DNA of 64,000 nucleotides, from the NCBI RefSeq assembly GCF_000517625.1, contig NZ_CP007055.1, forward strand, positions 930,001-994,000, read 5' to 3'. The notes below the pieces were generated by a model. The model was not told the origin of the DNA. It saw only the letters and a list, made by a program, of their open reading frames with translations, and ran no database searches. Below are positions 40,563-55,000 of this stretch, piece after piece. The DNA comes from Halostagnicola larsenii XH-48 (GTDB taxonomy: Archaea > Halobacteriota > Halobacteria > Halobacteriales > Natrialbaceae). A program made the translations under genes and the position numbers. How positions within the stretch are numbered: position 1 is the stretch's first letter; every line of letters starts with the position of its first letter.

Positions 40563-40633
40563 GCGCGGATGGTCTAGTGGTAGGACCTGAGCCTTCCAAG
40601 CTCATGGCCCGGGTTCAAATCCCGGTCCGCGCA
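40563..40633 (+). tRNA. tRNA-Gly (anticodon UCC)
   Basis: Full cloverleaf of 71 nt: acceptor GCGCGGA pairs with TCCGCGC, the anticodon stem TGAGC/GCTCA encloses CTTCCAA (anticodon TCC), and the T arm is CCGGG/CCCGG around TTCAAAT. The discriminator is A at 40633. The T-arm/acceptor half is duplicated 122 bp downstream (see next entry). Confidence 0.96.
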
Positions 40634-40755
40634 TTCCTTCGGCGAACAATATCGTGAGCCGAAGGCATCGCAGAGGATTTGAATTACGGAAGACGCACGC
40701 TCACGAGCGAAGCGAGTGAGACCGTCTTCAGATGGTTCAAATCCCGATCCACACA
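40634..40755 (+). repeat. tRNA-linked structured element, copy 1 (after tRNA-Gly)
   Basis: Directly after the tRNA is hairpin A: stem CCTTCGGC/GCCGAAGG (40636-40643 and 40658-40665) with loop GAACAATATCGTGA. Then GGATTTGAA (40675-40683) is complementary to TTCAAATCC (40736-40744), forming an outer stem. Inside is hairpin B: GAAGACG/CGTCTTC (40689-40695, 40723-40729) and CTCAC/GTGAG around loop GAGCGAAGCGA (40705-40715). The TTCAAATCC arm belongs to a degenerate copy of the tRNA 3' half (40734-40755, 3 mismatches in 22). A second element with the same plan follows tRNA-Arg at 54888. Confidence 0.8.
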
Positions 40756-49510: not shown

Positions 49511-49945
49511 AGTCTATACCGGGCGGTAGTATAAATCCCTGTCAGACAAATTACTCTGCGTTGTACGACGAAATTAATTTGGCAGGTATCACCGTCGTGT
49601 GAATCGTGTCTCCCACCGTTGTCTTACGCGACGCCGTCCGTCGGTTCGGATCCAGACTGCCGTTCAACCGGCGTTTCACGCGGCCGCTGTCGCGGATCTG
49701 TGCCATTGATCGACGAGAGAAATCGGTACCCTGCCCCGCCTTTGGGGCCAACTGACCATCTAGTGGGGGTGTCATACTCGCGCGTCTGCTATCGCACCTG
49801 TACCGTTCGGGTCTTCGGCTCGAGCGGAGCCGTTGCACCAGGTCACCCAACGTGGTCAGAATCTCGTCTCGTCAGGGTATCGAACCGATCGGATCACGAG
49901 TCAACGCAGTCGCTCGAGCGTGTGTAGAACGAATGGAGTATGAAT
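49511..49945. other. Intergenic region between the HalOD1 gene and SRP RNA
   Basis: About 435 bp. It holds the HalOD1 promoter (TTTATAC on the minus strand at 49529-49535). The 100-codon frames on both strands (49551-49850 minus, 49619-49927 plus) are arginine/serine-rich and match nothing I know, so no gene is called. The right end borders the 3' end of the SRP RNA. Confidence 0.4.
49529..49535 (-). promoter_or_regulatory. TATA box of the HalOD1 gene
   Basis: Minus-strand TTTATAC, giving a predicted start near 49506 and a leader of about 40 nt to the ATG at 49462. Confidence 0.5.
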
Positions 49946-50253
49946 GTGGACACCCGAGATTGCCCGGCGTTCCGACCGGGGGAATCCCAGTTGCCTCCTC
50001 CACCCCGCGACCCGTCGAGCGACAGGTGTCCGGCGGTCCACTGCTCGCTTCCGCGCCTGATGGGCTGTCGCCGATTAGCCGCAATGGGACGTCCCTGCGG
50101 ACGGCCATCGCGGCCCGCTGTCCCCGACGGACGAGGCTTCTCTGTTGGCTCCCGGGGCCCCGGTCGGTCTGACCGGACGCCCTCGAGGATCGGCCCCCGC
50201 TAAAGACCATAGTGCGGGTAACGAGCAGGGCCTAACTGCCCGACCTAGTCCAC
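49946..50253 (-). ncRNA. Signal recognition particle (7S) RNA
   Basis: On the minus strand about 308 nt show archaeal SRP RNA features. The S-domain helix 8 core is present as CAGG-CGC-GGAA-GCG-AGCAG, with the GGAA tetraloop and the asymmetric loop bound by SRP54. The Alu-domain side has CTAGGTCGGGCAG and GTTACCCGC near the 5' end. Helix 5 arms include CCGACCGGGG pairing with CCCCCGGTCGG. The ends pair through GTGGAC/GTCCAC (helix 1), which sets the boundaries. A CCTTAAGC box (minus strand, 50272-50279) is about 26 bp upstream of the 5' end. The RNA guides membrane and secretory protein targeting with SRP19 and SRP54. Confidence 0.88.
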
Positions 50254-50271
50254 TTCCATCTAGCTGCCGTT

Positions 50272-54812: not shown

Positions 54813-54887
54813 GGGCGCTTAGCTCAGTCTGGACAGAGTGCTTGGCTTCGGACCAAACCGTCGCGGGTTCAAATCCTGCAGCGCCCA
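54813..54887 (+). tRNA. tRNA-Arg (anticodon UCG)
   Basis: 75-nt cloverleaf: acceptor GGGCGCT/AGCGCCC, D stem GCTC/GAGT, anticodon loop CTTCGGA giving TCG, T arm GCGGG/CCTGC around TTCAAAT, discriminator A. One pair at the base of the anticodon stem (C27-A43) is mismatched. The T-arm/acceptor half is duplicated 113 bp downstream. Confidence 0.94.
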
Positions 54888-55000
54888 TGTTTCTGTCGCG
54901 AACAACACCGTGAGCGACAGATACTGAACCGCGAAGGATTTGAAAGAGAGAACACCGAGCAAAGCGAGGTGTTCACGTGGTTCAAATCCTGCAGCGCCTC
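54888..55000 (+). repeat. tRNA-linked structured element, copy 2 (after tRNA-Arg)
   Basis: Same architecture as the element after tRNA-Gly. Hairpin A: TCTGTCGC/GCGACAGA (54892-54899, 54914-54921) with loop GAACAACACCGTGA. Outer stem: AGGATTTGAA (54935-54944) pairs with TTCAAATCCT (54981-54990), 10 of 10. Hairpin B: GAACACC/GGTGTTC (54950-54956, 54968-54974) with loop GAGCAAAGCGA. The outer 3' arm lies in a copy of the tRNA-Arg 3' half (54979-54998, 20 identical bases). Compared with copy 1 the stems differ in sequence but stay paired, while both loops are conserved. Confidence 0.82.

Follow-up and report, generated by a model that had tools for sequence, protein, structure and literature searches.

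The DNA behind the tRNA-Gly(TCC) gene of Halostagnicola larsenii XH-48 carries a second copy of the tRNA 3' end together with two hairpins, and the question it raises is what kind of element this is and how it is related to the tRNA gene beside it. The window, that is, the whole stretch of 64,000 nucleotides that was analysed, contains three tRNA genes according to the tRNA gene scan. The host gene of the first array, tRNA-Gly(TCC), is located at 40563..40633 (+) (ARAGORN; Rfam RF00005, 70.8 bits). As the original prediction had stated for its T-arm/acceptor half, the last 22 nt of this gene (40612-40633) recur at 40734-40755 with 86% identity and a spacing of 122 bp; the copied 21-nt segment comprises bases 53-73 of tRNA-Gly (40613..40633, +; repeat D2), and the copy that closes unit 1 lies at 40735..40755 (+; repeat search). 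Hairpin A (40636..40665, +; reading, fold and covariation) begins 2 nt past the tRNA, where it had been expected, and consists of a stem, CCTTCGGC/GCCGAAGG, enclosing GAAC-AATATC-GTGA, with tandem G.A pairs, an R-Y pair, C-G and an AANNYC loop. The antisense T-arm, GGATTTGAA (40675..40683, +; reading, fold and covariation), pairs with TTCAAATCC of the copy and closes over hairpin B (40689..40729, +), so that the predicted pairing was recovered; the hairpin B tip is GAGC-GAA-GCGAG, with tandem G.A and a GNA triloop. Folded as RNA, positions 40634-40755 reach -51.3 kcal/mol (z = -6.1), a value equalled by none of 200 dinucleotide shuffles.

The matching layout claimed for tRNA-Arg was also found. 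The host gene of this second array, tRNA-Arg(TCG), is located at 54813..54887 (+) (ARAGORN; Rfam RF00005) and is followed by hairpin A (54892..54921, +), with stem TCTGTCGC/GCGACAGA enclosing GAAC-AACACC-GTGA, the same antisense T-arm GGATTTGAA (54936..54944, +), hairpin B with a GAGC-AAA-GCGAG tip (54950..54974, +) and a perfect 20-nt copy of the tRNA 3' end (54979..54998, +, 100%; repeat search) at a spacing of 113. Both loop motifs are common to the Gly and Arg loci. The third tRNA gene of the window, tRNA-Ala(GGC) (1133-1204), is without a unit.

The unit is thus hairpin A, antisense T-arm, hairpin B and a 21-bp copy of bases 53-73 of the host tRNA. These cassettes of roughly 100 bases, each ending in the last 21 bases of its own tRNA, occur one or more per tRNA, and the original view of the two copies as an isolated pair was too narrow: the genome has about 30 units, of which they are two. 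A census of the home genome (4.13 Mb) covered all 43 RF00005 tRNAs and the DNA downstream of each. A copy of the gene's own 3' end was present within about 260 nt at 27 of the 43, often in tandem, and about a third of the tRNA genes were without a unit. The copy starts at tRNA base 52/53 and, in most home arrays, ends at the discriminator base. Multi-unit arrays include those of Lys-CTT, Leu-TAG and Arg-CCT, and the intron-bearing tRNA-Trp, missed by RF00005, has a unit too. At G000:C1:88462-89018 of the same genome, two tRNA-Asp(GTC) genes form a tandem pair, each with its own unit and copy behind it.

A covariance model, R1, was built from 60 aligned units, mainly of other haloarchaea. The Gly unit 1 and the Arg unit were matched whole, at 90.2 and 83.3 bits, respectively. 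Of the 35 home matches to R1, 30 lay downstream of a tRNA on the same strand, at a distance of up to 300 nt (chance, 0.16% per match); the remaining five were four antisense shadows of units and one displaced unit. Home-genome units were not found away from tRNA genes, which counts against a mobile cassette.

The units are class-wide and were present in nearly all genomes sampled. An exact three-part pattern that made no use of tRNA position retrieved 76 stretches from about 85,000 species genomes, all of them Halobacteria by record title. A start within 260 nt behind a tRNA was seen for 71 of 77 pattern matches, and for 60 of them it was at 7-13 nt; 15 amino-acid identities were represented. 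Run with R1 over 391 Halobacteria genomes, the covariance-model search proposed in the original prediction matched 383 of them, representing 85 of 86 genera, and the matches were tied to tRNA 3' ends. In a sample of the phylum, 51 Halobacteria matched R1, and other classes were absent among the matches listed. Twenty of 20 loci from further families showed a tRNA, a unit and a copy of its own 3' end; the second proposed check, on agreement between the terminal copy and the tRNA next to it, was likewise affirmative. The figure of 191/247 arrays in the copy survey is not an occupancy rate, since the loci were mostly picked for holding a unit.

The eight positive genomes that were counted had 9-45 units each, and six genomes of that count were unit-free; in two of these six, none of the 30 tRNAs examined bore a copy. 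Three unit-free genomes (G317, G018 and G314) belong to one genus, with about 47% GC where sampled. Low GC as the sole cause of unit loss was rejected: unit-free G130 and G317 have 47-48% GC, and G022, with 69%, is also without units.

In the 60-unit alignment, eight pairs of hairpin A were changed on both sides and 91.5% of cells were paired, compared with 25-44% in slid controls for the whole structure. Since the loop columns of this alignment were fixed by the search pattern, a new count of the motif was made on 150 distinct hairpins, of which many had been recruited by R1 or BLAST. On these, the hairpin A loop comprises six bases, AANNYC, and its inner pair is A-T in 98 cases, G-C in 51 and G-T in one. 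Stem mismatches were G.T in 46 cases vs A.C in 14, which identifies the tRNA-sense strand as the folding strand. Hairpin B has a GARC-NNN-GYGA tip in 110 of 220 cores vs 1.4 in shuffles, with a GNA triloop in 98 of the 110. Loops and hairpin tips are conserved class-wide and stems vary freely. Beyond the conserved T loop, the antisense T-arm pairs better with its own copy (3.53) than with other copies (2.26), the maximum of 300 permutations being 2.77.

Extraordinary stability is known for DNA minihairpins that have a GNA loop and two G-C pairs (PMC4686876). As the hairpin tips (GC-GNA-GC) match these known DNA structures, we would suggest, less firmly than the points above, that the units probably act as single-stranded DNA, through the folded sense strand. 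Energies calculated for RNA likewise point to the sense strand, which was the more stable in 190 of 219 units; the sense-strand advantage of hairpin A, absent under the DNA parameters of ViennaRNA and present under the RNA parameters, counts against a DNA form.

Comparisons between loci indicated how the units are gained and lost. Two loci that share a downstream gene differ by one additional 115-nt unit plus copy after the tRNA, present in L273 and not in L281, and in L280 the unit held in common with L271 is preceded, towards the tRNA, by an extra one. Arrays hold up to six copies. In 59 multi-copy arrays, the proximal copy was less diverged than the last one in 36, more diverged in 3 and tied in 20. 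Behind tRNA-Lys(TTT) at G041:C1:2656853-2657300 (L288), four identical 111-bp tandem units are a very recent amplification; tandem duplication therefore does occur as well, and the earlier statement that no simple tandem duplication is involved has to be restricted in this respect. Loss was observed at tRNA-Ile, where comparison of the home genome with G001 revealed a hairpin B removed by microhomology deletion. In sister species, hairpin A of the Gly(TCC) unit was kept in three of four and the core was different in each. The flanks of L261 and L262 are 91% identical and their hairpins A different, hairpin A having been swapped between these loci. For Leu(TAA), 30 loci from one genus (52 species) were compared, with units in 26 of 27 parsed arrays and many A/B combinations. 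Such near-fixed occupancy at some tRNAs also fits a host function and counts against a mobile cassette.

Cores are also shared between different tRNA genes. A search for exact cores across isotypes gave just three identical ones. BLAST was more informative and revealed a core of about 87 nt with 95% likeness between tRNA-Lys(CTT) in one species and tRNA-Ser(GGA) in a second, where the antisense and copy flanks are those of the respective tRNA. Haloarchaea readily carry out ectopic gene conversion. This process could be the route by which cores spread, and as such it also counts against a mobile cassette.

Copies of the local tRNA, whole-unit differences between species beside the tRNA, and diverged distal copies make insertion with a 21-bp target duplication the simplest account. 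With the balance about even, we interpret the units as a family of non-coding, tRNA-anchored cassettes of the Halobacteria that insert by tRNA genes with duplication of a 21-bp target and act via sense-strand hairpins. As a description, the tiny non-autonomous element of tRNA 3' ends that was suggested originally has good support; its attachment-site part has less, since the copy is taken from the local tRNA in the manner of a target duplication and does not look like a fixed att site carried by the element. From the comparisons, a new cassette would go in directly after the discriminator base of the tRNA, duplicating the 21-bp target; arrays would lengthen at the tRNA-proximal end, comparable to CRISPR growth at the leader, and would then shorten and be reshuffled by recombination between copies. 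The copies of the own tRNA, the 36:3 polarity and the pair of occupied and empty sites would fit one-end growth of a casposon/CRISPR-like kind.

We hold with somewhat under even confidence that this is a new kind of mobile or self-propagating cassette, using the tRNA 3' end as anchor and 21-bp target, copying part of the target with each unit, forming DNA hairpins on the sense strand and depending on an enzyme other than Y1, Cas1 or reverse transcriptase. These three were ruled out as mobilisers by phylogenetic profile. The IS200/605 Y1 transposase (PF01797) gave no match in G044, G036, G137 and G027, which hold 9-45 units, and 10-12 matches in each of the unit-free G317, G018 and G314, many of them broken by stops; G000 (the home genome), G041, G137, G027 and G024 hold units without Cas1 (PF01867); and none of 15 genomes has an RVT_1 reverse transcriptase (PF00078). 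Neither an autonomous partner nor terminal repeats, a circle or an intermediate turned up for the units, a further point against a mobile cassette. The most likely candidate mobiliser would be a host or ubiquitous recombinase or the cells' own recombination machinery.

The main rival of the mobile cassette is a structured RNA co-transcribed with the tRNA, an explanation that we consider rather unlikely. In this view, a protein binds hairpins A and B in the trailer of the pre-tRNA, to the benefit of 3' processing, stability or regulation; the antisense T-arm is trapped by the copy, leaving the tRNA free to fold, an L7Ae-like protein would be a suitable partner for the tandem G.A pairs, and turnover is mere sequence evolution. 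Conservation of the structure on the tRNA-sense strand, with wobble tolerated, leaves room for an RNA role, such as the competition with the T arm for folding that the original prediction had offered as its alternative, and the RNA stabilities given above and the start of hairpin A 0-4 nt past the tRNA are in its favour. A trailer RNA is harder to reconcile with the absence of units from about a third of the home tRNA genes and from whole genomes, with a variable number of units that reaches six copies and includes four identical tandem units at one tRNA, and with sister species that have different cores at the same tRNA. The same four 111-bp units of G041 and the microhomology loss of hairpin B at the home tRNA-Ile would be expected if the arrays had arisen passively at tRNA 3' ends, through tandem duplication, gene conversion and template switching driven by the hairpins, with neither element nor function. 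This explanation is improbable, given loops and tips conserved across the class despite freely varying stems, the complete lack of copies at tRNAs of unit-free genomes, and the presence or absence of whole units at an otherwise syntenic site.

Equally improbable are remnants of, or decoys for, mobile elements that integrate into tRNA genes by tyrosine integrases, the copies being their att sites. Integrated elements do use the same tRNAs. A 14.3-kb element occupies tRNA-Ala(CGC) of the home genome (G000:C1:2361400-2376500, L344; attR ATCCCAGCGAGTCCA), with the old unit pushed 14.3 kb away; among its genes are one for a phage-type integrase and one with an archaeal flagellin domain. An element of about 3 kb is integrated at the tRNA of L108. 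In Natronolimnohabitans innermongolicus (L134 580-3500), a 2.4-kb element lies between two tRNA-Gly(TCC) units, beside a 45-nt partial tRNA, and may have integrated into a copy and not into the tRNA itself, which would be expected of a decoy. Where read, however, these elements have no hairpin A or B at the tRNA-side end and merely displaced older units. Deleted proviruses do not fit the conserved hairpins or the spacers between copies, which measure 73-127 nt (5th-95th percentile) and are far too short for an integrase gene inside the unit. Viral carriage of the units was rejected, as the viral collections gave 0, 1 and 0 matching contigs, the single match being itself tRNA-linked: it is a tRNA-Glu with a unit on an IMG/VR contig (L336 13744-14020), probably host DNA beside a provirus.

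Known families were also compared. At gathering score, the Rfam scan of the window gave only tRNA, SRP RNA and the S15 leader; the S15-Halobacteria leader (1368-1439) and the archaeal SRP RNA (49944-50255) are ordinary. The best sub-threshold match on the unit reached 15.2 bits vs a cut-off of 40 (E 1.5), and a known RNA family was rejected, as the original prediction had anticipated. It had also excluded a terminator, correctly: in place of a hairpin followed by a T run, the T-rich stretch precedes hairpin A, and T4 runs occur in only 3% of unit interiors. REP/BIME with RAYT and the IS200/IS605 derivatives (PATEs) are likewise small and non-coding, with one-strand hairpins, conserved tips and many copies per genome; in contrast, the units are strictly tRNA-bound, each includes 21 nt copied from its own target, and unit-bearing genomes without Y1 exist. 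CRISPR arrays and casposon target sites share an anchor at one end, a duplicated repeat (in the units, the tRNA 3' end) and less diverged repeats near the anchor, but the 'spacers' of the units are conserved structured cassettes, and Cas1 is missing from the home genome and from four further genomes with units. Integrative elements of the SSV, SNJ2 and pNOB8 integrase types also have tRNA 3' ends as targets, where a partial copy of the tRNA is left behind, whereas the units are gene-free, of about 100 bp and with conserved hairpins, and the larger elements, one with an integrase, sit alongside as separate entities. Integron attC cassettes resemble them in single-strand hairpins and modular arrays; the copy, read directly, has the core GTTCRAATC from the tRNA and not attC GTTRRRY, and there are no cassette genes, which speaks against an integron cassette array. 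We know of no copy of a neighbouring tRNA in the hairpin-forming repeats of sponge mitochondria, an unrelated lineage. Those repeats are alike in being short hairpin repeats in intergenic spacers, according to their description (PMC2800124).

Searches of open-access papers on tRNA-linked repeats, hairpins or the motif yielded no description of the units, and an earlier description elsewhere is possible. No described element or RNA family in Rfam or this literature was found to match them. They are testable at once in genetically tractable haloarchaea. If the findings are true, most tRNA genes of an archaeal class would bear a structured, fast-evolving accessory overlooked by annotation, which would represent either a new route by which tiny DNA elements spread through target copying, analogous to CRISPR growth, or a new class of tRNA-trailer RNA, and which would have a bearing on the preference of mobile elements for tRNA genes.
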